A stretch of DNA of 64,000 nucleotides, taken from Changchengzhania lutea (lineage in GTDB: Bacteria; Bacteroidota; Bacteroidia; Flavobacteriales; Flavobacteriaceae). The position numbers were made by a program, and so were the translations under genes. Numbering within the stretch: the stretch's first letter is position 1; each line of letters starts with the position of its first letter. The stretch spans positions 2,728,499 to 2,792,498 of the forward strand of contig NZ_CP039456.1 of the NCBI RefSeq assembly GCF_006974145.1, read 5' to 3'. This document shows positions 9,479-59,419 of the stretch, in pieces. Under the pieces are notes generated by a model, which searched no databases, had not been told where the DNA came from, and saw only the letters and a list, made by a program, of their open reading frames with translations.

Positions 9479-10834
9479 ATGTCAAACGACATTCGTATTA
9501 AAAAAGGTCTAGATATTAATCTTAAAGGTGAGGCCGAAAAAACTACCGAAAAGGCAGTTTTGAGCAACTTTTATGTATTAAGACCTGAAGACTTCCATAG
9601 CGTTACCCCAAAATTAATTTCTAAAGTTGGATCTAAAGTAAAAGCAGGTGAGCCTGTGTTTTATGACAAATCTAATGAGAACATCAAGTTTGTTTCCCCG
9701 GTTTCGGGTGAGGTTTTAGAGATTGCTCGTGGCGAAAAACGTAAAATACTTTCTGTAAAAATTCAAGCAGATAAAGAACAATCATTTATTGAGCACGGTA
9801 CATTTAGTGTAGATGGTGCTTCAGCTGATAGTTTAAAAGCACACTTGCAGGCTGCAGGTTGCTGGCCATTTATTAAGCAACGCCCTTATGATGTTATTGC
9901 CAACCCAAATAATACGCCTAAAGCTATTTTTGTTTCGGCTTATGCAAGTGCACCCTTAGCGGCAGATTTAGATTATACTTTAAAAGGTAAAGAGGCTGAA
10001 TTACAAGCGGCATTATCGGCCTTAGTAAAATTAACAGAAGGTCAGGTTCATGTGTCCGTTGGTAAAAATTCCAATTCACCGTTCTCTGGTTTATCAGGAA
10101 TTACTTTACATCAAGTTTCTGGTCCACATCCTTCTGGAAATGTAGGCACTCAAATAAATAAAATTGACCCTATTAATAAAGGTGAAAATGTTTGGACGCT
10201 TAGCGCGCAGGATTTAGTTATTATTGGGGAGTTACTATTGACAGGAAAGTTTAATGCTAATAGAATTGTGGCATTGGTTGGGTCTTCGGTTGAAAAACCA
10301 AGATATTTTGAGACAAAGATAGGAAGTGAAATTGCGACCATGATTTATGATCATGGAGTATCTAAAGACAGCAACGATCGCGTTATTTCTGGTAATGTTT
10401 TAAGTGGCAAAGAAATACAGCCTGATGGAAATTTGGACTATTACAGTAATGTTGTTACCGTGATTCCAGAAGGGGATGATTATGAATTCTTTGGATGGAC
10501 TACACCTGTTTTTAATAAAGTTTCAGTGTCAAGAGCCTTAACCTTTTCGTGGTTATCACCAAATAAAAAGTTTGAATTGGATACCAATACAAATGGTGAA
10601 CATCGTGCGTTTGTTACAACGGGTACTTATGAAGAGGTCTTTCCTTTAGATATTTATCCTATGCAAATTTTGAAAGCCTGCATGTATCAAGATTTAGATG
10701 AAATGGAAGCTTTAGGCATGTATGAAGTAGCTCCAGAAGATTTTGCGCTTACAGAATTCGTGTGTGTTTCGAAACAACCGCACCAAAAAATTATAAGAGA
10801 AGGTTTAGACTTAATGCTAAAAGAGATAGGATAA
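9479..10834 (+). CDS. nqrA: Na+-translocating NADH:quinone reductase subunit A
   Basis: A 451-residue cytoplasmic-side subunit of the Na+-NQR respiratory pump, which oxidises NADH, reduces quinone and exports sodium. It begins with the typical IRIKKGLDINLKGEAEK and contains the barrel-sandwich segment SGEVLEIARGEKRKI (about residues 78-92) and the FFGWTTPVFNKVSVSRA block. The length agrees with Bacteroidota NqrA. It is the first gene of nqrABCDEF. Its TAA overlaps the nqrB ATG by one base. In Vibrio, NqrA contributes to the quinone site at the interface with NqrB. Confidence 0.97.
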   Translation: MSNDIRIKKGLDINLKGEAEKTTEKAVLSNFYVLRPEDFHSVTPKLISKVGSKVKAGEPVFYDKSNENIKFVSPVSGEVLEIARGEKRKILSVKIQADKEQSFIEHGTFSVDGASADSLKAHLQAAGCWPFIKQRPYDVIANPNNTPKAIFVSAYASAPLAADLDYTLKGKEAELQAALSALVKLTEGQVHVSVGKNSNSPFSGLSGITLHQVSGPHPSGNVGTQINKIDPINKGENVWTLSAQDLVIIGELLLTGKFNANRIVALVGSSVEKPRYFETKIGSEIATMIYDHGVSKDSNDRVISGNVLSGKEIQPDGNLDYYSNVVTVIPEGDDYEFFGWTTPVFNKVSVSRALTFSWLSPNKKFELDTNTNGEHRAFVTTGTYEEVFPLDIYPMQILKACMYQDLDEMEALGMYEVAPEDFALTEFVCVSKQPHQKIIREGLDLMLKEIG

Positions 10835-12060
10835 TGGGTTTAAAAGAGAATTTACATAAATTTAAGGAAAAGAATAAGGACAAAAAGTGGTTGCCTGCCT
10901 TTTCTGCACTTCATACGTTTTTATATTTGCCAAATGAGACGACTCATAATGGGACACATATAAAGGCTGCAGATGATTTAAAGCGTACCATGAATACCGT
11001 TATCATGGCGCTTATTCCATGTTTAATATATGGTATGTTTAATGCGGGATATCAGCATTACTTTGCTTTAGGGGAAATTGAATCTGCAAACGGATTTTTA
11101 GGTGCCTCTTTTTGGACCTGGGATAATTTGGTTGTTGGTCTGTGGCAAGTTTTACCATTGGTAGTTGTGTCTTATGGCGTTGGTTTAGCGGTTGAATTTA
11201 TATTCGCCATAATCAAAGGTCACGAAGTAGAAGAAGGTTATTTGGTAACCGGTATGTTGGTACCATTAATTGTTCCTATAGACATTCCACTTTGGATGTT
11301 GGCCGTAGCTGTCATATTTGGTGTCGTTATAGGTAAAGAAGTTTTTGGAGGTACAGGAATGAATATTTTAAACCCTGCCTTAACCATAAGAGCCTTTTTG
11401 TTTTTTGCATATCCAACTTGGATGTCTGGTGATAAGGTTTGGGTGCACGGTGCGGTAGAACGCGATCAAATGATTGCTGCCGGACAAAATTTAGATGCCA
11501 TTTCTGGAGAAACCATTTTAGGAAGTTATGCACAAAGTAATCCAGTAATTTATGATTATTGGGATATGTTCTGGGGACTCATTCCCGGTTCGGTAGGTGA
11601 AACCTCAAAATTCTTAATTATTATAGGCGCTCTATTTTTGATATTTACAAAAGTAGGTAGCTGGAGAATTATTATAAGCACGCTTATTGGAGCCTTAGTA
11701 ATGGGTTTAATTTTTAATGGTGTAGTAGATGCTGGATGGATTGGAGAATCAAGTAAATTCTACGGACTAATGAGTGTTCCATTCTGGCAACACTTAATTA
11801 TAGGTAGTATTTTATTCGGTGCCGTGTATATGGCAACTGATCCAGTGACCGCTTCACAAACAAATAAAGGAAAATGGATCTACGGGTTTTTAATAGGATT
11901 TATATCCATAATGATTCGCGTATTCAATCCGGCATATCCAGAAGGTGTATTCTTAGCAATCTTACTAATGAATGTGTTTGCACCAACTATTGATCACTAC
12001 GTGGTTCAAGGCAATGTAAAACGAAGAATGAAACGAGTAAAAACAAGTTTAATCAGTTAA
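10834..12060 (+). CDS. nqrB: Na+-translocating NADH:quinone reductase subunit B
   Basis: A 408-residue polytopic membrane subunit with about ten helices. I take the ATG at 10834, coupled to the nqrA stop, rather than an alternative start 72 bases upstream inside nqrA. NqrB carries one covalent FMN on a threonine set by ApbE in a D-x-x-S/T-G-A-T context. Here the segment is LDAISGETILG with the candidate threonine at residue 227, so the usual alanine before the threonine is glutamate. The C-terminus has AVYMATDPVTAS, typical for the family. NqrB also holds riboflavin and much of the Na+ path in studied complexes. Confidence 0.97.
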   Translation: MGLKENLHKFKEKNKDKKWLPAFSALHTFLYLPNETTHNGTHIKAADDLKRTMNTVIMALIPCLIYGMFNAGYQHYFALGEIESANGFLGASFWTWDNLVVGLWQVLPLVVVSYGVGLAVEFIFAIIKGHEVEEGYLVTGMLVPLIVPIDIPLWMLAVAVIFGVVIGKEVFGGTGMNILNPALTIRAFLFFAYPTWMSGDKVWVHGAVERDQMIAAGQNLDAISGETILGSYAQSNPVIYDYWDMFWGLIPGSVGETSKFLIIIGALFLIFTKVGSWRIIISTLIGALVMGLIFNGVVDAGWIGESSKFYGLMSVPFWQHLIIGSILFGAVYMATDPVTASQTNKGKWIYGFLIGFISIMIRVFNPAYPEGVFLAILLMNVFAPTIDHYVVQGNVKRRMKRVKTSLIS

Positions 12061-12095
12061 TTTTTATATTGATGAAATTTTTTTTAAGAGTTACT

Positions 12096-12124
12096 GAATG
12101 TATTTCAAATTTTTTGAAGCATTC
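12096..12124 (+). other. hairpin in the nqrB-nqrC spacer
   Basis: GAATG, then TTCAAA, is mirrored by TTTGAA and CATTC around a three-base loop. It lies in the only long gap (115 bases) of the first four nqr genes. There is no pure U-tract after it, so an mRNA processing or stability element is more likely than a terminator. Confidence 0.45.
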
Positions 12125-12175
12125 AAAAACAAAAAATTTAAAACAGATGAAACGTCTAAAGGTTAAAACCGCTTA

Positions 12176-12928
12176 ATGATGGAAAAGAGAACAGATAAAA
12201 ATTCATATACCATATTATTTGCTATCGGAATGGTCTTGGTAGTAGGTGCCTTATTAGCATTTGCAGCCTCGTCATTAGAGCCAAAGATTACTGAAAATAG
12301 GCGTTTAGAAAAACAACAGAATATTCTCTATGCCATGGGTGTTAATGATAATGATGAAAACAGCGCAACATTTGTTTCAACAGAGGATGCGCCAAAACTT
12401 TTTGAGCAATACATCAAACAACAATTGGTTATTGTGGATGGTGAAGTAAAGGAAGATAATAAGGCTTATTTAATTGATGTTAAAAAAGAAAAATCGGCAG
12501 CTAAAGACCCTGATTACTCTAGAAGATTACCATTATTTGTTGGTGAAAAAGATGGTAAAACATTTTATGTAGCACCTATTTACGGAAAAGGTTTATGGGA
12601 TGCCATTTGGGGATATGTAGCTTTAGATAAAGACATGGTTGTACAAGGGGCATATTTTGACCACAAAGGAGAAACCCCTGGTCTTGGTGCCAATATAAAG
12701 CAACGCTATTTTATGGATGATTTTTACGGAGAGCATTTATTAACAGAATCAGGAGTCTTTAAAGGGATCACTGTTGCTAAAGGAAATGCCGATCCAAAAA
12801 ATAACGACAAAAAGGATAATGAAGTAGATGCACTTGCTGGAGCAACCATTACTGGTGACGGAGTTACGGCTATGATCAAAAGTGATTTAAAGTTGTACTT
12901 ACCTTATTTTCAAAATTTAAAAAATTAA
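12176..12928 (+). CDS. nqrC: Na+-translocating NADH:quinone reductase subunit C
   Basis: A 250-residue subunit with one N-terminal transmembrane helix (about residues 11-31) and a periplasmic FMN domain. The flavinylation motif is canonical: DALAGATIT with Thr224 as the FMN-ester residue, very close to Thr225 of the Vibrio enzyme. The GYVALDKD and GETPGLGANI segments of the FMN-binding domain are present. Two consecutive ATG codons open the frame; either may be used. The ApbE transferase needed for modification is encoded 7.5 kb downstream. Confidence 0.97.
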   Translation: MMEKRTDKNSYTILFAIGMVLVVGALLAFAASSLEPKITENRRLEKQQNILYAMGVNDNDENSATFVSTEDAPKLFEQYIKQQLVIVDGEVKEDNKAYLIDVKKEKSAAKDPDYSRRLPLFVGEKDGKTFYVAPIYGKGLWDAIWGYVALDKDMVVQGAYFDHKGETPGLGANIKQRYFMDDFYGEHLLTESGVFKGITVAKGNADPKNNDKKDNEVDALAGATITGDGVTAMIKSDLKLYLPYFQNLKN

Positions 12929-12931
12929 TTT

Positions 12932-13576
12932 ATGGGACTTTTATCAAAAAAAGACACAAAGTTAATCACAGATCCATTAGCAGATAACAATCCTATTACT
13001 ATTCAAGTATTGGGCATTTGTTCGGCGCTGGCCATTACTGCAGAATTGGAAGCATCTATTGTGATGTCTATATCGGTATTATTTGTATTAGGCGTAGGTA
13101 ACGTGGTTATTTCATTAATGCGAAATATCATTCCATCAAAAATTAGAATCATCGTGCAACTTATCGTGGTTGCTACATTGGTTATTATAGTAGATTTAGT
13201 ATTGAAAGCCTTTGCATACGAATTAAGTAAAACACTTTCAGTATTTGTTGGACTTATTATTACAAACTGCATTATTATGGGGCGTTTTGAAGCCTTTGCA
13301 TTAGGTAACGGGCCTTGGCGTTCATTTTTAGATGGTATTGGTAATGCCGCTGGTTATGGTGTTATTTTAATTATAGTTGGCTTTTTTAGAGAGTTGCTAG
13401 GTTCAGGAACACTACTTGGTATTCCAATGCTGGGAGACCCTATTGAGAAGACAGGTTTATACGCTATAGGCTACGAGAATAACGGATTTATGTTATTATC
13501 ACCAATGGCATTGATTGTTGTGGGTATTATTATCTGGGTACAACGTAGTAGAAATAAAGCATTAGTAGAAGACTAA
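12932..13576 (+). CDS. nqrD: Na+-translocating NADH:quinone reductase subunit D
   Basis: A 214-residue membrane subunit with six predicted helices, homologous to NqrE and to RnfE. It shows the family segments NPITIQVLGICSALA near the N-terminus and VGLIITNCIIMGRFEAFA at about residues 107-124, whose cysteine helps bind the intramembrane 2Fe-2S cluster shared with NqrE. The start is three bases after the nqrC stop. Length is normal. Confidence 0.97.
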   Translation: MGLLSKKDTKLITDPLADNNPITIQVLGICSALAITAELEASIVMSISVLFVLGVGNVVISLMRNIIPSKIRIIVQLIVVATLVIIVDLVLKAFAYELSKTLSVFVGLIITNCIIMGRFEAFALGNGPWRSFLDGIGNAAGYGVILIIVGFFRELLGSGTLLGIPMLGDPIEKTGLYAIGYENNGFMLLSPMALIVVGIIIWVQRSRNKALVED

Positions 13577-13615
13577 AATTAGTAAACGGTTAACAGTCGC
13601 AGTATGTATTTACTA

Positions 13616-13643
13616 ACACTGAACACTGAGTACTGAATACTAG
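13616..13643 (+). repeat. four tandem 7-bp units in the nqrD-nqrE spacer
   Basis: ACACTGA, ACACTGA, GTACTGA and ATACTAG follow each other without gaps, ending seven bases before the nqrE ATG. The array is short and its role is unknown; it may be a slippage-prone tract in the leader of nqrE. Confidence 0.55.
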
Positions 13644-13649
13644 AAAAAA

Positions 13650-14372
13650 ATGGAACATATAGAATTATTTTTCAAATCGATATTTATAGATAACATGGTA
13701 TTTGCAACCTTCTTAGGAATGTGTTCATATCTCGCCGTGTCTAAAAAAGTAAGTACAGCTGTTGGTTTAGGAGCAGCAGTAATTTTTGTATTAGCAATTA
13801 CGGTGCCTTTGAACTGGTTGTTAGATCAGTATCTATTACAACCAGGGGCTTTATCTTGGTTGGGTGAAGAATATGCGGCTTACGATTTAAGTTTTTTATC
13901 CTTTATCATGTTTATCGCCACCATTGCAACCATGGTACAACTAGTAGAAATTGTGGTCGAAAAATTTTCGCCATCATTATATAATTCATTGGGGATCTTC
14001 TTGCCACTTATCGCAGTAAACTGTGCGATTTTAGGAGGGTCATTATTTATGCAATCTCGTGAAATCCCTACATTAGGATTAGCGACTGTTTACGGTGTGG
14101 GTTCAGGAATTGGATGGTTTTTAGCTATTTTGGCAATTGCAGCTATTCGCGAAAAAATTAGATATTCAAATGTGCCACCAGCCTTAAGAGGTTTGGGAAT
14201 CACCTTTATTATCACGGGATTAATGGCGATAGGATTTATGAGTTTTGGAGGTATGTTAACTGGTGGGGATGAAGACACTCCAGTAGAAGAAAAAACAGCA
14301 ACTATTGAGTCTGCTGATGATCATACAGAAGACGAAAAAGTGGTAGTGAACAACTTAAAAGATAATGAGTAA
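13650..14372 (+). CDS. nqrE: Na+-translocating NADH:quinone reductase subunit E
   Basis: A 240-residue membrane subunit with six helices. The core matches Nqr[25 protein letters not shown] at the start, whose cysteine is one cluster ligand, and [16 protein letters not shown] at about residues 118-133 with the second. The C-terminus carries an extra ~35-residue acidic tail after [12 protein letters not shown], compared with about 200 residues in Vibrio NqrE; such tails are common in Flavobacteriaceae. A 73-base spacer with a heptanucleotide array separates it from nqrD, and its last eight bases overlap nqrF. Confidence 0.96.
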
Positions 14373-15681
14373 CATGATATTAGCCGCAGGAACATTAGGA
14401 ACAGTAATAGCAACAGTAACGGCATTTTTAATTATAACCTTGTTATTGGTAGCCTTACTATTGGTTGTAAAACAAAAATTGTCACCATCTGGTCCAGTAA
14501 AAATCACTATTAATGGGGAACGTGAAATCGAAGTGTCTTCAGGAGATAGTTTATTATCTACTTTAGGTTCAGAGAAAATTTTCTTGCCATCTGCCTGTGG
14601 TGGTGGTGGAACCTGCATTCAATGTGAATGTCACGTTTTAGAAGGTGGTGGTGAAGCCTTACCTACCGAAACCCCACATTTTACAAGAAAAGAATTGAAA
14701 CAGGGCGCACGTTTAGCATGTCAGGTTAAAGTGAAACAAGACATGAACATTACGATTCCAGAAGAAGTGTTCGGAATTAAAAAATGGGATGCAACGGTAG
14801 TGCGTAATTATAACGTGGCGTCATTTATAAAGGAATTTGTTGTTGAAATTCCAGAAGATATGGGCTATAAAGCTGGTGGATATATCCAGATTGAAATACC
14901 GCCTTGCGAAGTAAAGTTCCAGGATATGGATATTACAGCGCACCCTGAAGAGCACGAGACACCAGATAAATTTCAAGCTGAATGGGACAAATTTAATTTG
15001 TGGCCTTTGGTAATGAAGAATAATGAAACCGTTGAGCGTGCTTATTCTATGGCATCGTATCCTGCTGAAGGACGTGAGATCATGTTGAATGTACGTATTG
15101 CTACACCACCTTGGGATCGTGCCAAAAACGGCTGGATGAATGTGAATCCTGGTATTGCTTCGTCATATATATTCAACCAGAAAGCTGGCGATAAAGTTGT
15201 TATTTCAGGACCTTATGGTGAATTCTTTATCAACGAATCGGACAGTGAAATGCTTTATGTTGGTGGTGGTGCAGGTATGGCACCCATGCGCTCACATTTG
15301 TATCATTTATTCAAAACCTTAAAAACAGGTAGAAAAGTAACCTATTGGTATGGTGGCCGTTCTAAACGTGAATTGTTTTATTTAGATCATTTCCATCAGT
15401 TAGAAAATGATTTCCCAAATTTTAAATTTTACTTGGCGTTATCGGAACCTTTACCAGAGGATAACTGGAAGGTAAAAGAAAACATAGATGCACCTGGTGA
15501 TGGGTTTGTAGGCTTTATTCATAATTGTGTTATTGATAACTACTTAAATCATCATGAGTCACCAGAAGATATCGAGTTATATTTCTGTGGCCCACCTTTA
15601 ATGAATCAAGCCGTTCAAAAAATGGGTGAGGATTTCGGAATTCCAGATGAACATATTCGATTTGATGACTTTGGAGGATAA
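14365..15681 (+). CDS. nqrF: Na+-translocating NADH:quinone reductase subunit F
   Basis: A 438-residue NADH-oxidising subunit: an N-terminal helix (residues 5-30), a 2Fe-2S ferredoxin domain with the cysteine pattern [14 protein letters not shown] ... ACQ (about residues 75-118), then an FAD domain ([11 protein letters not shown]) and an NADH domain ([24 protein letters not shown]). The ATG at 14365 overlaps the nqrE stop by eight bases. Electrons go from NADH to FAD to 2Fe-2S, then to the NqrD/E cluster. The gene closes the operon and is followed by a strong hairpin terminator. Confidence 0.98.
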
Positions 15682-20396: not shown

Positions 20397-21386
20397 ATGA
20401 ATATAACGAATAGATTTTTAATAGGATTATTCTTTTTAACCATTGCTTTTTCCTGTAAGCCACAACCAAAAAAAAATATAGTTCTTGAAGGCCCTATTTT
20501 TGGAACATCATACAAGGTTATTTACAATTCAGATATAAATTTTCAAAAACAGTTTGATAGTCTGTTTTATGTGATTAATAAATCCTTGTCTACCTATCAG
20601 GTGAATTCAGATATATCTAAACTTAACAGGAATGAAAATGTTGCAGTTGACCATCATTTTATAAAGGTTTTTGAGAGCTCTAAAACAATATATAAAGAAA
20701 CGAATGGCGCTTTCGACCCCACCATTGGGGGCATAGTGAATGCTTGGGATTTTGGTCCGGAAGGAAACATTTCTAATTTAGATAGCCTAAAAATTGACAG
20801 TTTAATGCAGTACGTTGGACTTAATAAAGTGAAATATGTTCAGAATAAAATTGTTAAACCTCTCAACACTTATTTAGATTTTAATGCGATTGCCAAAGGC
20901 TATGCTGTTGATGTTTTAGGCGAGTTTTTAGAATCCCGAAACATAGAAAATTATCTTATAAATATTGGAGGGGAGCTACGTTCCAAAGGGATAAATATCA
21001 TGAGCAATGATTTTTGGAAGGTAGGCGTTGAAGACCCTAATTTTGATGGTTCTCAATCTATAAATAAAATCATTTTATTAAAAGATCAAGCCATGGCGAC
21101 TTCTGGGACGTACAGAAAATTTTATGTAGATGAGGATGGTAATCGTTATGCTCATATTATTGATGCTAAAACAGGCTATCCAAGTCAAACGAATTTACTC
21201 AGTATTTCAGTCATTGCAGAAAATTGCATGCTGGCCGATGCTTATGCCACGGCATTTAAATCGATGGGTCTTGAACAGGTACAATTATTTTTGAAAACAC
21301 ATCCAGAACTAAAAGTATTTCTGATATTTGAGAACGACGAGAAGCTATTAGAGACACGCTCACTTAATGGTTTTCTTGAAAATTAA
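20397..21386 (+). CDS. apbE: FAD:protein FMN transferase, lipoprotein
   Basis: A 329-residue ApbE-family flavin transferase that moves FMN from FAD to a threonine of its target protein. A lipobox (LTIAFSC, Cys20) predicts a lipoprotein anchored in the periplasm, matching where NqrC's flavin domain sits. The core motifs are present: FGTSYKVIY near the start, the AIKGYAVD-type segment FNAIAKGYAVDVL at about residues 162-174, NIGGELRSKG, and YAHIIDAKTGYP with ADAYATAFKSMG for Mg2+/FAD binding. Its natural substrates in this window are NqrB and NqrC. It is preceded by a small gene in the same direction and converges on a methyltransferase 8 bases away. Confidence 0.95.
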   Translation: MNITNRFLIGLFFLTIAFSCKPQPKKNIVLEGPIFGTSYKVIYNSDINFQKQFDSLFYVINKSLSTYQVNSDISKLNRNENVAVDHHFIKVFESSKTIYKETNGAFDPTIGGIVNAWDFGPEGNISNLDSLKIDSLMQYVGLNKVKYVQNKIVKPLNTYLDFNAIAKGYAVDVLGEFLESRNIENYLINIGGELRSKGINIMSNDFWKVGVEDPNFDGSQSINKIILLKDQAMATSGTYRKFYVDEDGNRYAHIIDAKTGYPSQTNLLSISVIAENCMLADAYATAFKSMGLEQVQLFLKTHPELKVFLIFENDEKLLETRSLNGFLEN

Positions 21387-53933: not shown

Positions 53934-54812
53934 TTAATCAATATGTTTTTTTGCCTTGTAGGAAGAACGTACCAAAGCACTACTTTCAACATGCCTAAAG
54001 CCTAGGTCTAACCCAATGGTTTCGTATTCTTTAAACTGATCAGGGTTTATAAAGGTTTTAACAGGTAAATGTTTTTTACTGGGTTGAAGGTATTGGCCAA
54101 TAGTAACCACGTCTACATCGTTCGCTTTTAGATCGTGCAAGGTTTCAATAACTTCTTCACGTGTTTCGCCTAAACCAAGCATAATTCCAGACTTGGTTCT
54201 GCGCTGGCCTTGTTGTTTTAAATATTTAAGAACCCCTAAACTACGATCATATTTAGCTTGAATGCGTACTTCACGAGTCAATCGTCTCACGGTTTCAATA
54301 TTATGAGAGACCACTTCTGGTGCCACTTGAATAATTCTATCAATATGATGTTCTACCCCCTGAAAATCAGGAATTAAGGTTTCTAAAGTTGTTTCTGGAT
54401 TCATCCGGCGCACAGCCTTAACGGTTTCTGCCCATATGATGCTCCCCATATCTTTTAAATCATCTCTATCAACACTGGTTAAAACAGCGTGTTCTATTTG
54501 CATAATTTTTATAGATCGTGCTACTTTTTCAGGCTCGTCCCAATCAACGGTTTCTGGCCGACCTGTTTTTACACCACAAAAGCCACAAGAACGTGTGCAC
54601 ACATTTCCTAAAATCATAAACGTTGCTGTGCCCTCTCCCCAACATTCGCCCATATTCGGGCAGCTACCAGACGTGCAAATCGTATTTAGCTTGTATTTAT
54701 CAACAAGACTGCGTAATTCGGTATACTTTTTACCAGTTGGAAGCTTTACGCGAAGCCACTTGGGTTTGGGTTGGCGTTCAGGTAAAATATTTGAAATGGT
54801 TTCCGTGTTCAT
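53934..54812 (-). CDS. lipA: lipoyl synthase
   Basis: A 292-residue radical-SAM enzyme that inserts sulfur into octanoyl groups of the E2 and H proteins. Both iron-sulfur sites are present: the auxiliary cluster in [12 protein letters not shown], the radical-SAM CxxxCxxC in CTRSCGFC, and the C-terminal RSSY motif whose serine binds the auxiliary cluster. Length is normal. An exact TATCTTTG -7 box lies 18 bases upstream, so it probably starts the lipA-gap-kinase transcript. Confidence 0.98.
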
Positions 54813-54830
54813 GCCTTAAAAATATGGTTG

Positions 54831-54838
54831 CAAAGATA
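54831..54838 (-). promoter_or_regulatory. -7 box for lipA
   Basis: The minus strand reads TATCTTTG, an exact TAnnTTTG, in the 46-base gap between the Nramp-like gene and lipA. Confidence 0.5.
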
Positions 54839-54858
54839 CAAAGTATTCTTTTAATAGA

Positions 54859-56103
54859 TTACAAAATACTCAGGTACCAGATGCTAAAACCGATTAAAAA
54901 AGCAACCCCTAAACAGCTTAACACATGCAGCCATTTTGAAGGTCTCCAATCTGCGGGAGTATGCTTGCTAGAAATGAGTTTATAGTTGATTATGGAATAA
55001 AATGGTGCCGTGATAAATGAGAGGATAGTGGCGATTTTTATTAACAATCCCATTTCGGATGCCAAAAATACAAAGATGAAAATGGTACCTAATACGAGTA
55101 GTACAATCCAAAAGCCATAATTTAATGGTACGCTTTTATTAAAAAGCAATTGTGTTGTCTTTTCCATAGCTCTTGGCGAAGCATCGAGCGTGGTAAGTGT
55201 CGTACTAAACATAGTGGTAAATACGGCAATACCGATAATGATATAGGACCAATTTCCTAAGCTTGCCGTATACATATGTATCAATTGTGATGAAAATTGA
55301 CCAGCCGAAGCACTGAAGGTTTTACCACTATTGAACATCACCAATGCCCCTAACAAAAGAAAACCTATGCCTATGAAAATAGTACTGACATAGCCAATAT
55401 TAAAATCGAATAAAGCAGATTTAGGGTTATATTTATTGGTGTCTTTGTTTTTTTCAATAGCCCAAAGTGAGTGCCATACCGAGATATCTAATGGGGCTGG
55501 CATCCAACCCATAAAGGCGATTAAAAATGCGATTTCTACTGAATTACTCGGGAGTATTTGTTTAAATGAAACGGGTTCTGTCGTATTACATAATGCTATT
55601 GAAACAGCCACAACGGTGCTTATTGTCAGTGTGATAATGATCACTTTCATTAAGTTGTCCAGCAACTTGTATTTACCAATCATCAACATCGTTAAGCAAA
55701 TAAAAAGAATGATAAGCGTCCATATTTCAATACTTGAAATTAATTTGCTTCCAATATAAAAAGGCCCAAAGTCGCCAAATAAGGTTGAGGCTAAACCTGC
55801 AGTCACAATGGTAACAGCAGTTTGAATGGTAAACATCGTGGCAAAGGAGAGCACGTAATAAGCTACTAAAACGCTTCTGCCTAATTTGTGATATCCTTCC
55901 AATAAGCTCTCTCCAGTAGCAGTGGCATAGCGCGGGCCAAATTGAAAAAATGGATATTTGAAAATATTAACGAGCAGTAACGCCCATAGTAGACCTAGGC
56001 CAAAATCGGCACCTGCTCTGGTTGATTGCACTAAATGGGACACGCCAATCGCGGCACCTGCAAATAATAAACCTGGACCTAGATTTTTTATCTTAGAAAT
56101 CAT
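54859..56103 (-). CDS. Nramp-related metal transporter lacking the DPGN motif
   Basis: A 414-residue polytopic membrane protein with about eleven helices, counted from the ATG at 56103; a TTG further up would overlap the sigma gene by 35 bases. The N-terminus LGPGLLFAGAAIGVSHLVQS aligns with Nramp helix 1, but the metal-binding D-P-G-N is replaced by I-G-V-S. The helix-6 region reads MGWMPAPLDISVWHS. So it belongs to the Nramp-like superfamily but its ion is not predictable as Mn2+/Fe2+. The start overlaps the ECF sigma gene by 11 bases. Confidence 0.87.
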   Translation of the reverse strand: MISKIKNLGPGLLFAGAAIGVSHLVQSTRAGADFGLGLLWALLLVNIFKYPFFQFGPRYATATGESLLEGYHKLGRSVLVAYYVLSFATMFTIQTAVTIVTAGLASTLFGDFGPFYIGSKLISSIEIWTLIILFICLTMLMIGKYKLLDNLMKVIIITLTISTVVAVSIALCNTTEPVSFKQILPSNSVEIAFLIAFMGWMPAPLDISVWHSLWAIEKNKDTNKYNPKSALFDFNIGYVSTIFIGIGFLLLGALVMFNSGKTFSASAGQFSSQLIHMYTASLGNWSYIIIGIAVFTTMFSTTLTTLDASPRAMEKTTQLLFNKSVPLNYGFWIVLLVLGTIFIFVFLASEMGLLIKIATILSFITAPFYSIINYKLISSKHTPADWRPSKWLHVLSCLGVAFLIGFSIWYLSIL

Positions 56104-56647
56104 TTTTTTCCTGGATAATTTCGGCAAGAAGTTTTTTAGCGCGCAAAAGTTTGACTTTTACGTTATTCATCGGCTCGTTAAGTTCTTCAGAAATCTCTTT
56201 GTAACTCAATTCTTGAAAGTAACGCAAATTGATAACCTCTTGATAATGTGGCTTTAAGAGTTTTATATCTCTTAATAATTTAGCCAAATGCTGTTCCGTA
56301 ATTAACTTATCTTCAGCCGAAGGCGATTCATCTAAAATTTGATATGCCTTTTTGTGATTTTCAGAAATGTTTTGAGTAATTGAATGCTTTTCTTTCCGAA
56401 GTAAATCAATATGAATGTTTTTAGAAATAGCAATCAGCCAGGTTTTGAACGCATATTTTTCATCAAAGGACTGAATTTTATCAAAGGCTTTAGAGAAGGT
56501 TTGAATGGTAATATCTTCAGCATCATTTTCGTTCTGAATCCGCTTTAATTGAAAACCATAAACATAATCCCAGTACGAATTTAATAAATGATTAAATGCC
56601 TTTTGGTCATTTGCTTTAGCACGCTTAATGGCTTCTTCTATTTCCAA
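56093..56647 (-). CDS. ECF-type RNA polymerase sigma factor
   Basis: A 184-residue sigma-70 family ECF factor. Region 2 is at about residues 20-85 (NDAEDITIQTFSKAFDKIQSF, FKTWLIAISKNIHIDLLRK) and region 4 at about 120-178 (LKPHYQEVINLRYFQELSYKEISEELNEPMNNVKVKLLRAKKLL). No anti-sigma gene is adjacent. It overlaps the glycosyltransferase gene by ten bases upstream and the transporter by eleven downstream, so it is locked into one transcript with both. In Bacteroidota such orphan ECFs often respond to envelope state; the signal here is unknown. Confidence 0.94.
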   Translation of the reverse strand: MEIEEAIKRAKANDQKAFNHLLNSYWDYVYGFQLKRIQNENDAEDITIQTFSKAFDKIQSFDEKYAFKTWLIAISKNIHIDLLRKEKHSITQNISENHKKAYQILDESPSAEDKLITEQHLAKLLRDIKLLKPHYQEVINLRYFQELSYKEISEELNEPMNNVKVKLLRAKKLLAEIIQEKNDF

Positions 56648-57750
56648 TGATTGGGTTTTGAGATGAGATTCTTTATAAAGATAGTTAATTGCGCAACAAT
56701 TAGGAATATTTCTAATATAGGAAGTAAAATTAAAACATCTGTCTCACCTAATTTTTTAGAGGAACACCCGACGATAATATATTGTATTAGCAACATGAAA
56801 AGAATCAAGGCAATTACGGCCAGGGTTTTAAAAGAAATGAGCAACAGTAAAACAGCAAGTATCCAAAACAATATTTTTGAAATGTAGATTAACGCAAGTA
56901 AAAATTTATGAATGCCTTTGTAATATTTGGCTGTAGAAACATGCCGCCTCTTTTGTGTAAACCAACTTTTATATGTGGTTTTAGGTAAGGATTCTGTAAA
57001 ACTATTCGGTGAAAAACAGATGGTAGTATTGGTGCTGTTGGCTACTTGATTTATAAATAAATCATCATCACCAGACCGCACTTTCATGTGCGTGATGAAA
57101 CCGTTAGCATCAAAAAATTCTTTTTTGGTATATGCTAGATTTCTGCCAACACCCATATAGGGAATCCCGATTTTCGCAAATGAAAAATACTGAATAGCTG
57201 TAATTAGGGTTTCATAACGAATGAGTTTGTTAAGAAAGGAATTCTTGACTTTTGCATAGGTCCCATATCCTAATACAATGGATTTGTGCGTATCAAAATG
57301 AGCGGTCATCTCTTTTAACCATTGATTTGAAACAGGTTTGCAATCGGCGTCTGTAAAAATTAAGGTGTCATGAGATGAGGCTTTTATACCAAGGGTTAGT
57401 GCGTATTTTTTATTACCCCAGAACGCTTCATTACTGATAACATCAACCACTTTGATATTTTGATGAGATGCTTTAAATTCATTTATAACCTTCAGGGTTT
57501 TATCTTTTGAAGCATCATTAATTAAAACAATCTCAAAATTTTGATAGTCTTGGGAGATTATAGATGGTAAAAAAACCTGAAGATTTTCGGCTTCATTTTT
57601 AGCGCAGATAATTATGGAAACAGGTAAATTTTTTGAAGGCTGTTCGTGCACTTTTAAAAAAGCAAACCTTCCGAAGATAAAAATATAGTAAAAAACTTGA
57701 ATAGAAACTACAACAATAAAGGTGTAGAACAAAAGGTCAAGAACCGCCAT
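56638..57750 (-). CDS. family 2 glycosyltransferase, membrane-bound
   Basis: A 370-residue processive-type GT2 with one N-terminal helix and three to four C-terminal helices. The catalytic domain has PVSIIICAKNEAENLQVFLPS, VLINDASKDKT, the metal-binding FTDADCKP, and the RSGDDDLFIN and QKRRHVSTAKYY segments, corresponding to the ED and Q-x-x-R-W motifs. It resembles poly-N-acetylglucosamine or hyaluronan synthase-like enzymes in outline, but the sugar is unknown. It lies six bases after the small Cys-rich protein. Confidence 0.92.
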   Translation of the reverse strand: MAVLDLLFYTFIVVVSIQVFYYIFIFGRFAFLKVHEQPSKNLPVSIIICAKNEAENLQVFLPSIISQDYQNFEIVLINDASKDKTLKVINEFKASHQNIKVVDVISNEAFWGNKKYALTLGIKASSHDTLIFTDADCKPVSNQWLKEMTAHFDTHKSIVLGYGTYAKVKNSFLNKLIRYETLITAIQYFSFAKIGIPYMGVGRNLAYTKKEFFDANGFITHMKVRSGDDDLFINQVANSTNTTICFSPNSFTESLPKTTYKSWFTQKRRHVSTAKYYKGIHKFLLALIYISKILFWILAVLLLLISFKTLAVIALILFMLLIQYIIVGCSSKKLGETDVLILLPILEIFLIVAQLTIFIKNLISKPNHWK

Positions 57751-57756
57751 GTAGTG

Positions 57757-57960
57757 CTATGAATGTTCAGGTTCATTACAATTAGAAAACTCTTCAGGTG
57801 GTTTTCCGCAAAACCCACAAGCATCTCCGTTTTTATTTAACATAGGATTTTGACTCGCACAGGTACCAGCAAATTTACCGTCTTTTTTTGCCCAAATTTT
57901 GATTGCAATGCCAGCAATACCGATACCTAATAGAATAAATGTGATTAATAAGAGTTTCAT
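57757..57960 (-). CDS. small Cys-rich membrane protein resembling NqrM
   Basis: A 67-residue protein with one N-terminal membrane helix (residues 3-20) and a hydrophilic tail holding four cysteines at 34, 48, 51 and 61 (GTCASQ, ACGFCG, NCNEP). Flavobacterial homologues are usually called 'membrane or secreted protein'. The layout (short helix, basic stretch, first cysteine around residue 33, then a Cys cluster) is like that of NqrM (DUF539), the factor needed to deliver iron to the NqrD/E cluster. Sequence similarity is weak, so this is a hypothesis. The gene heads a transcript with a glycosyltransferase, an ECF sigma factor and a metal transporter. Confidence 0.75.
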   Translation of the reverse strand: MKLLLITFILLGIGIAGIAIKIWAKKDGKFAGTCASQNPMLNKNGDACGFCGKPPEEFSNCNEPEHS

Positions 57961-58031
57961 GCCCAGAAATTTTATACAAAGATAATCTTTTTCCTTAAAA
58001 ATTTAGGAAAAACAGTAAGACCCTTTAAAAT

Positions 58032-58070
58032 GAAAAAGCACCTACTTTATAAAAAAGTAAGCGCTTTTGT
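58032..58070. terminator. imperfect hairpin after the anti-sigma gene
   Basis: AAAAGC and TACTT are mirrored by AAGTA and GCTTTT around an A-rich loop, with T-runs outside. It lies between the anti-sigma stop and the small Cys-rich gene; weaker than the other terminators in the window. Confidence 0.5.
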
Positions 58071-58087
58071 GTATTGAAATATATTAT

Positions 58088-58876
58088 TTATTGCAGGTTA
58101 ATAGCAGCTACAGTGTTTTCTAGAGAAGCTGTTGTATTTCCTCCTTTTGGTTCTATGGTAATATTTAAAGCCAAAGCATTTTCAGTATATGGAATGGCCC
58201 TTAGCTGTCTATCAGATTCACTTAGGATGCCTAAACTTACCATTTTACCTTGTAAATCTGCCCAAATTTGGTAACATTGTTCTTCAGGTAATTGTGGTAA
58301 GGAAACCACATCAATCAACGATGTTTTTTCAATAGGGTTTATATAGGCAACTGTTTTTAAGTCTTTTGCACGGCTATTACCTTGCATGATGTACTTATAG
58401 GTTTCGGGATTGTTAAGCTGCTGAAATTGATACATCACATCGTCTAATTTTTTATTATTAGACTCAATATCATCACGCAAATCAAAAATTTCTTCTACAA
58501 CAATTTGATTTTCTTGTGCCAGTTTTTGATTTTGAGTATAAAATAAATAGGATGTGCCAGCAAAAATTAAAGTAGCAATACTTGCGGCAATACTATATTT
58601 ATACCAAGACTTATATTTCTTAGATTTCTTTAAAGATATTACGGGAGCATCGTCTAATTCGTCTAAAATATTATTCAAAACGTGTTTAGGTGCTTCAACA
58701 GCATTACTTTTTGCAACAACCTCTAAGTTGTATTGCAGCGTATTATAGGCGTTTTGTACTTCTGGATATTTAGCAATATTGGTTTCAACTAATGTAGTTT
58801 CGCCAAAATTAGTCTCACCTATTAGATATTTTTCTAAAAGACCAGAGCTTAAAAAAGCATTTATCTTCTCTTTCAT
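58088..58876 (-). CDS. anti-sigma factor, RskA-type
   Basis: A 262-residue membrane protein. The N-terminal ~80 residues are the cytoplasmic sigma-binding part (LLEKYLIGETNFGETTLVE, helical), then one membrane helix (YSIAASIATLIFAGTSYLFYTQ, about residues 91-112), a periplasmic coiled coil (ENQIVVEEIFDLRDDIESNNKKLDD) and the RskA C-terminal sandwich (VAYINPIEKTSLIDV, EEQCYQIWADLQGKMVSLG). It should hold the sigma factor encoded 12 bases upstream until a signal leads to its release or proteolysis. Confidence 0.93.
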   Translation of the reverse strand: MKEKINAFLSSGLLEKYLIGETNFGETTLVETNIAKYPEVQNAYNTLQYNLEVVAKSNAVEAPKHVLNNILDELDDAPVISLKKSKKYKSWYKYSIAASIATLIFAGTSYLFYTQNQKLAQENQIVVEEIFDLRDDIESNNKKLDDVMYQFQQLNNPETYKYIMQGNSRAKDLKTVAYINPIEKTSLIDVVSLPQLPEEQCYQIWADLQGKMVSLGILSESDRQLRAIPYTENALALNITIEPKGGNTTASLENTVAAINLQ

Positions 58877-58888
58877 GACGTTATTTAG

Positions 58889-59419
58889 TTAAGGATTATA
58901 AATTTTTTTCAATTCACGTAACCCAATTTTTAATCTTGATTTTATAGTTCCCAACGGAATGTCTAATTCTTCACTTGCTTCTTGCTGCGTCATCCCTTCA
59001 AAGAAAAGCGCATTAATTACAATTTGATATTTCTCATCTAAACTTCCTAAATGTTTTTGAATGTCTAGAACATCTTGGTTTAAAGAGTTGGTTGTTATCT
59101 TATATACGGATGAAGTATCGATTTGGACTTCTTTCTCAGTTTTGTTTTTTAAAGATCTAACTTTATCGATGGCCGTGTTATATGCAATTCTATACAACCA
59201 TGTGAATAATTTAGCTTTTGAACTATCGTATTTTTTTGCGTAACGCCATATTTTTACAAAGGTTTCTTGAAGCACATCTTGGGCGACCTCCTCGTCTGTT
59301 ATAATTTTTTGGATGACACCATAAAGCGAGTCTGCATAGTTGTCATATAAAAGCGTAATGGCTTTTTTATCGCCATGGGCTAGAAGGGTAACTATTTCTT
59401 TTTCAATGGGTGCTATCAA
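58889..59419 (-). CDS. ECF-type RNA polymerase sigma factor with adjacent anti-sigma
   Basis: A 176-residue ECF factor of the SigK/ECF19-like kind. Region 2: YDNYADSLYGVIQKIITDEEVAQDVLQETFVKIWRYAKKYD, with FTWLYRIAYNTAIDKVR; region 4: LDEKYQIVINALFFEGMTQQEASEELDIPLGTIKSRLKIGLRELKKIY. It is followed after 12 bases by its RskA-type anti-sigma. Members of this pair type in other bacteria respond to redox or envelope stress; the local targets are not visible. Confidence 0.95.
   Translation of the reverse strand: MIAPIEKEIVTLLAHGDKKAITLLYDNYADSLYGVIQKIITDEEVAQDVLQETFVKIWRYAKKYDSSKAKLFTWLYRIAYNTAIDKVRSLKNKTEKEVQIDTSSVYKITTNSLNQDVLDIQKHLGSLDEKYQIVINALFFEGMTQQEASEELDIPLGTIKSRLKIGLRELKKIYNP

Follow-up and report, generated by a model that had tools for sequence, protein, structure and literature searches.

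The 64,000-nucleotide stretch of the Changchengzhania lutea chromosome analyzed here (the window) encodes a 67-amino-acid protein with one helix and four cysteines (P0001; 57757..57960, minus strand, ATG start) that is very probably a divergent homologue and functional counterpart of NqrM; as a Bacteroidota NqrM-type maturation factor, it would supply iron to NqrD/NqrE during assembly of Na+-NQR. A maturation factor for the iron site of NQR has been described for Proteobacteria. This protein, NqrM (DUF539, PF04400), is to our knowledge present only in bacteria with Na+-NQR, and its gene is usually found after apbE within the nqr locus; it is said by Kostyrko et al. to have four conserved cysteines, the first near residue 33, with Cys33 reportedly essential in Vibrio. 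Judging from the accessible parts of the sources, NqrM has been proposed to deliver iron to NqrD/E (PMC12174285, PMC6209661), and Bacteroidota is regarded as the phylum in which NQR itself arose (PMC12174285). In the accessible parts of the literature searched, which covered few subscription journals, no named maturation factor was found for the NQR of Bacteroidota; term searches of the available text found no NqrM, ApbE, or maturation in papers on Prevotella NQR and found NqrM in the reference list only in a review of NQR as a drug target. If the assignment is correct, an unnamed protein family gains a function, the NQR assembly pathway can be tested in the phylum where the enzyme supposedly arose, and production of Bacteroidota NQR in E. 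coli gains a component that it would lack.

The original prediction started from a full Na+-NQR and ApbE in the window with no NqrM gene beside them, and both halves of this statement were confirmed. By Pfam, the nqr genes occupy 9479-15681 on the plus strand: nqrA (9479..10834; NQRA_N, NQRA_2nd, and NQRA_SLBB), nqrB (10762..12060; PF03116, in an open reading frame that overlaps nqrA, so that its start codon is putative), nqrC (12176..12928; FMN_bind), nqrD (12932..13576) and nqrE (13650..14372; both Rnf-Nqr), and nqrF (14365..15681; Fer2, FAD-binding, and NAD-binding domains), with nqrC, nqrD, and nqrE assigned from gene order together with domain. The flavin transferase gene apbE follows on the same strand (20397..21386). 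The gene for the 67-amino-acid protein lies outside this operon, approximately 36 kb from apbE. A search of the 4.13-Mb single-contig genome with PF04400 gave no match at E ≤ 10, and none of 247 Bacteroidota genomes had a match over the cut-off; sub-threshold matches (E ≤ 10) were scattered in 109 of the 247, and by coordinates none of them coincides with a site of the 67-amino-acid family.

The protein consists of a hydrophobic helix, a lysine-rich segment, the motif GTCASQNP, a CGFC motif, and a final cysteine, which places its cysteines at positions 34, 48, 51, and 61. Searching genome contigs turned up at least 475 confirmed relatives; 80 of these were taken, nearly all from Flavobacteriaceae and 72 to 87% identical to the 67-amino-acid protein, and all 80 keep the four cysteines at identical positions. 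Given this level of identity and the invariance of the cysteines, the open reading frame is a real, constrained gene, and the predicted NqrM-like plan of an N-terminal helix with a first cysteine at residue 34 holds across its relatives. An AlphaFold2 model places the helix at residues 2 to 26, with a mean pLDDT of 86 to 87 over residues 1 to 20; beyond the helix the model is of low confidence, and the overall mean is 64.4. From its hydrophobicity, the helix is predicted to insert in the membrane. A Pfam and NCBIfam scan of the protein and of all 19 members of a wider family gave nothing near a cut-off; PF04400 (cut-off, 22 bits) matched neither the 67-amino-acid protein nor any of 18 relatives at E values up to 10, and a search of plasmids with the protein gave no match.

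We propose that the N-terminal helix anchors the protein in the inner membrane and that the four-cysteine tail probably faces the cytoplasm, as suggested by the lysines that follow the helix. The cysteines would most likely bind iron at the membrane surface, and the tail would hand this iron to the NqrD/NqrE pair while Na+-NQR is being assembled, as proposed for NqrM. By analogy with NqrM, the protein would be needed for NQR maturation, and delivery of iron would run through Cys34.

The sequence relationship to NqrM was examined with profiles of the wide family (A2; the 67-amino-acid protein and 18 relatives of 61 to 80 amino acids) and of 12 true NqrM proteins of 66 to 82 amino acids taken from named plasmid records (A4), 9 of which are annotated as NqrM, 1 as a hypothetical protein, and 2 not at all; as a positive control, PF04400 matches all 12, the first at E 7.9e-23. 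The profile-profile comparison bore out the predicted kinship: hhalign of A2 against A4 gave a probability of 94.7% with E 5.8e-8 and a score of 43.0 over 54 columns, and Flavobacteriaceae sequences alone gave 85.6% with E 5.6e-6. This score was well above those of 38 decoys joining overlapping windows from NqrB-E helices to the real NqrM tail (none above 20.9), a control limited by the fact that most of these windows are internal helices of larger proteins, and of 60 NqrM profiles with columns shuffled within the helix and within the tail (none above 27.1). When the tail alone was shuffled, none of 60 profiles reached 43.0, the highest scoring 42.7 and the mean being 36; much of the signal is therefore carried by the helix and a smaller part by the tail. 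In these controls, whose alignment omitted the Bacteroidales sequences L306, L291, and L308, tail shuffles reached the real score against NqrM in 15 of 60 trials with the CCGGG family described below (A3), whose tail thus contributes nothing to that score, in 4 of 60 with a profile of the Bacteroidales four-cysteine type, and in 1 of 60 with a joint profile of the latter and the 67-amino-acid family.

Hidden Markov model searches of 11,061 small open reading frames from the collected loci, a set enriched in these families, point the same way from both directions. With a model of NqrM only, rows of NqrM loci take the first 12 places, and by eye all but 2 of the next 94 rows (E < 1, many repeating one gene) are the Bacteroidota proteins considered here; the joint model finds all 12 NqrM proteins at E 1.2e-6 to 4.2e-4, and a model of A2 only finds them more weakly, at E 1.8e-5 to 0.084. 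In a joint alignment of 14 hand-chosen sequences, the only invariant columns are those of C34, C48, C51, and C61. The middle pair is spaced CxxC in alphaproteobacterial and CxC in gammaproteobacterial NqrM; within Bacteroidota, it is CxxC in the 67-amino-acid family and mostly CxC in Bacteroidales.

The family thus resembles NqrM in size, in its single N-terminal helix, in the position of the first cysteine (about 33 to 34), in having four cysteines in the same order (C...CxxC or CxC...C), in going with nqr, and in lying beside apbE in many genomes. It differs in its tail, which reads GTCASxNP...CxxCG against GSCGGL...C in NqrM, in that no member of the wide family (0 of 19) matches the Pfam NqrM model, and in the location of the gene, which by coordinates is away from nqr in the window, as it is in most of the Flavobacteriaceae genomes in the phylum sample. 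As the family misses the Pfam cut-off, we regard it as a divergent, homologous NqrM-like branch and not as a member of PF04400 as currently drawn. RseC, an accessory protein of the NQR-related Rsx complex, likewise carries a four-cysteine motif; it is described as having two helices and another cysteine spacing (PMC11729352).

Three genome samples were searched with the family profiles and the NqrA domain PF24836. Among the 247 Bacteroidota genomes of the phylum sample, which like those of the other samples are not independent of one another, the family (profile A1) was found in 40, nqrA in 49, and both in 39 (Fisher 7e-35); in other words, nqrA was present in 39 of 40 family-positive and 10 of 207 family-negative genomes. 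The single family match among the 198 nqrA-negative genomes (G149) looks spurious: it covers 29 residues, its 31-residue frame contains two stops, and a wider profile fails to recover it in the stretch read. The 10 nqrA genomes without the four-cysteine form are 8 genomes of family f16, which have a CCGGG protein instead, and 2 of family f11, which have a cysteine-poor homologue. In the family sample (159 genomes, one from each of 159 genera), the family (profile A2) was found in 156, nqrA in 157, and both in 155; two genomes, 80% and 66% complete (G302 and G325), have nqrA only, and one (G021) has neither. In the one genome with the family gene and no nqrA match (G378, 99% complete), the surroundings of the gene are the usual ones, and synteny with the window breaks approximately 26 kb past the gene, before the nqr position (L252, L348, and L349); the missing nqrA reflects either gene loss or an assembly gap. 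Within one genus, that of G021, the family gene and nqr occur together in 16 of 160 species, and the remaining 144 have neither (Fisher 2.5e-22). The family is therefore not common in genomes without nqr, as the original prediction demanded of an NqrM-type protein: its carriers also have nqr in 39 of 40 cases in the phylum sample, 155 of 156 across the family, and 16 of 16 in the genus.

By coordinates, the family gene is within 15 kb of nqrA in 12 of the 39 phylum-sample genomes with both, and in all 12 loci it adjoins apbE, the two genes converging in 11 and sharing a strand in the twelfth; in six more genomes, that of the window included, it is approximately 40 to 60 kb from nqrA. In the genus sample, the gene is 6 to 7 kb from nqrA in 5 of the 16 carriers, and in 8 of the other 11 the two genes are on different contigs. 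Three of the five linked members were read (L264 to L266), and in each the gene adjoins apbE; the encoded proteins have the ending GTCSSNNP-CxICGAKP, which departs from the form common in Flavobacteriaceae. In these three loci and in L133 (all genus g2), nqrA-F lie compactly together with apbE and the NqrM-like gene in a single block whose sequences are divergent, and the divergent protein ends in L264 to L266 suggest that the block moved as a unit. Two further arrangements were observed at nqr loci: in family f8 (L160 to L164), nqrA-E are present with no nqrF match within the 13- to 18-kb stretches read, and on an Enterobacter hormaechei plasmid (L182:1-453), nqrM directly follows nqrF with no apbE between them.

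The idea that Bacteroidota use this family as their NqrM is supported by its distribution and homology, but not as a single form throughout the phylum: the eight f16 nqr genomes carry the CCGGG protein, and only some one in three Bacteroidales nqr genomes yielded the four-cysteine form. The f16 protein is short, with one helix followed by CCGGGxC and a further cysteine or cysteines, and is present in all eight of these genomes (L123 to L130). In seven, its gene comes shortly after apbE and has the same orientation; in the eighth (L129), it is about 1.1 kb after nqrF, and no apbE match is found there. A profile of the eight proteins (A3) matched strongly in those eight of the 247 genomes, with three marginal matches elsewhere; weak A2 matches in three f16 genomes (G009, G066, and G124) were short or contained stops and were set aside. 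Against NqrM, A3 gave 90.9% with E 1.2e-6 in hhalign; against A2, it gave 66.6% over the helix only, so that its link to the 67-amino-acid family rests on the helix and on location.

The order sample comprised 168 genomes from the order of G226, a Bacteroides-like genome whose NqrE is 93% identical to that of B. finegoldii; on this basis we take the order to be Bacteroidales. nqrA was found in 138 of them, a match to the wide profile in 114, and both in 109. Matches were read and typed in 112 of the 114 (G609 and G612 were left without a type), using a pattern rule that was made after the sequences had been viewed and that replaced an earlier rule under which many were unassigned; seven loci that repeat genes under other loci were omitted from the type listing. 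Under this rule, the four-cysteine type is present in 45 genomes, all with nqr (45 of 138 against 0 of 30 without nqr; p 5e-5), and the cysteine-poor type alone in 67 (64 with nqr and 3 without; p 1.5e-4). Six genomes carry both types, which stand in tandem at L253 and L258; family f11 has the cysteine-poor type only in the matches read. The wide profile gave no match in 29 of the 138 nqr genomes. At L242 and L245, four-cysteine genes that the genome search had missed adjoin apbE, and the sensitivity of such a short profile is therefore limited; nqr stretches from 21 of the 29 genomes, some of them fragments, yielded no convincing candidate in 19.

The cysteine-poor homologue (FPxTHxGxN...KGIxC) holds the place of the four-cysteine type beside apbE in L257, L261, and L263; it was seen also in L187, L188, and L248 to L250 and is the sole form seen in two Bacteroides-like genomes. 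We consider it conceivable, if rather doubtful, that NqrM arose long ago in Bacteroidota and has since split into four or more tail types: GTCASxNP/CxxC, KxCxSxDP/CxC, CCGGGxC, and cysteine-poor (FPxTHxGxN...C). On this reading, and if NQR is active in Bacteroides-like genomes, where the cysteine-poor type stands alone, that type would mature the enzyme without the first cysteine reportedly essential in Vibrio, and iron loading with it must then use other ligands or another factor.

Co-occurrence with nqr and location near it would look the same if the 67-amino-acid protein were a small subunit with a structural or accessory role in mature NQR and not a transient maturation factor. The sequence relationship to NqrM speaks against this, NqrM being needed for assembly and not known to be a subunit of purified NQR, and we consider a subunit role improbable. 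We give slightly less credence still to the idea that the protein serves another iron or redox enzyme inherited along with NQR or is a cysteine-rich membrane protein of the FeoB-associated type. FeoB-associated proteins, too, are short, with one N-terminal helix and a cysteine cluster, and their model (PF12669) weakly matches all eight CCGGG members (best E 0.062) and 1 of 19 wide-family members (E 0.099); however, these matches are far below the cut-off for both families, and the 67-amino-acid family is tied to nqr: its gene tracks nqr within a single genus (16 of 160 species) and, in the phylum sample, is located at the nqr locus in 12 of 39 genomes.

The original prediction also had the gene transcribed with a metal-transporter gene, a point that stands only for the gene order in the window. 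The 67-amino-acid gene is followed on the minus strand, in tight packing, by a glycosyltransferase-like gene named from its sequence (56638..57750), an ECF sigma factor gene (56093..56647; Pfam), and an Nramp-like metal transporter gene (54859..56127; Pfam). Across 78 loci with enough flanking sequence, the glycosyltransferase-like gene is a same-strand neighbor in 76 and the sigma factor gene in 77, whereas Nramp is near the gene in only 45; the Nramp neighbor is incidental, and the metal-transporter link was rejected. The tight and conserved neighborhood could otherwise be taken to mean that the protein belongs to an envelope or sigma-factor cluster, or to metal transport with Nramp. We hold this to be the least probable account, given the Nramp counts and the fact that in other families the gene sits elsewhere, next to apbE or, in eight loci, among other neighbors, and still goes with nqr; the glycosyltransferase-like neighbor is probably unrelated in function to the 67-amino-acid gene. 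An NqrM-type role remains our preferred reading of the protein. The cluster itself is conserved in Flavobacteriaceae and spans 53934-59419 in the window, its gene names being read from the sequences except that of the second sigma factor: upstream are a sigma-factor-like gene (69 of 74 loci) and an anti-sigma-like gene (64 of 74), followed by the NqrM-like gene, the glycosyltransferase-like gene, the ECF sigma factor gene, and a lipA-like gene (73 of 78).
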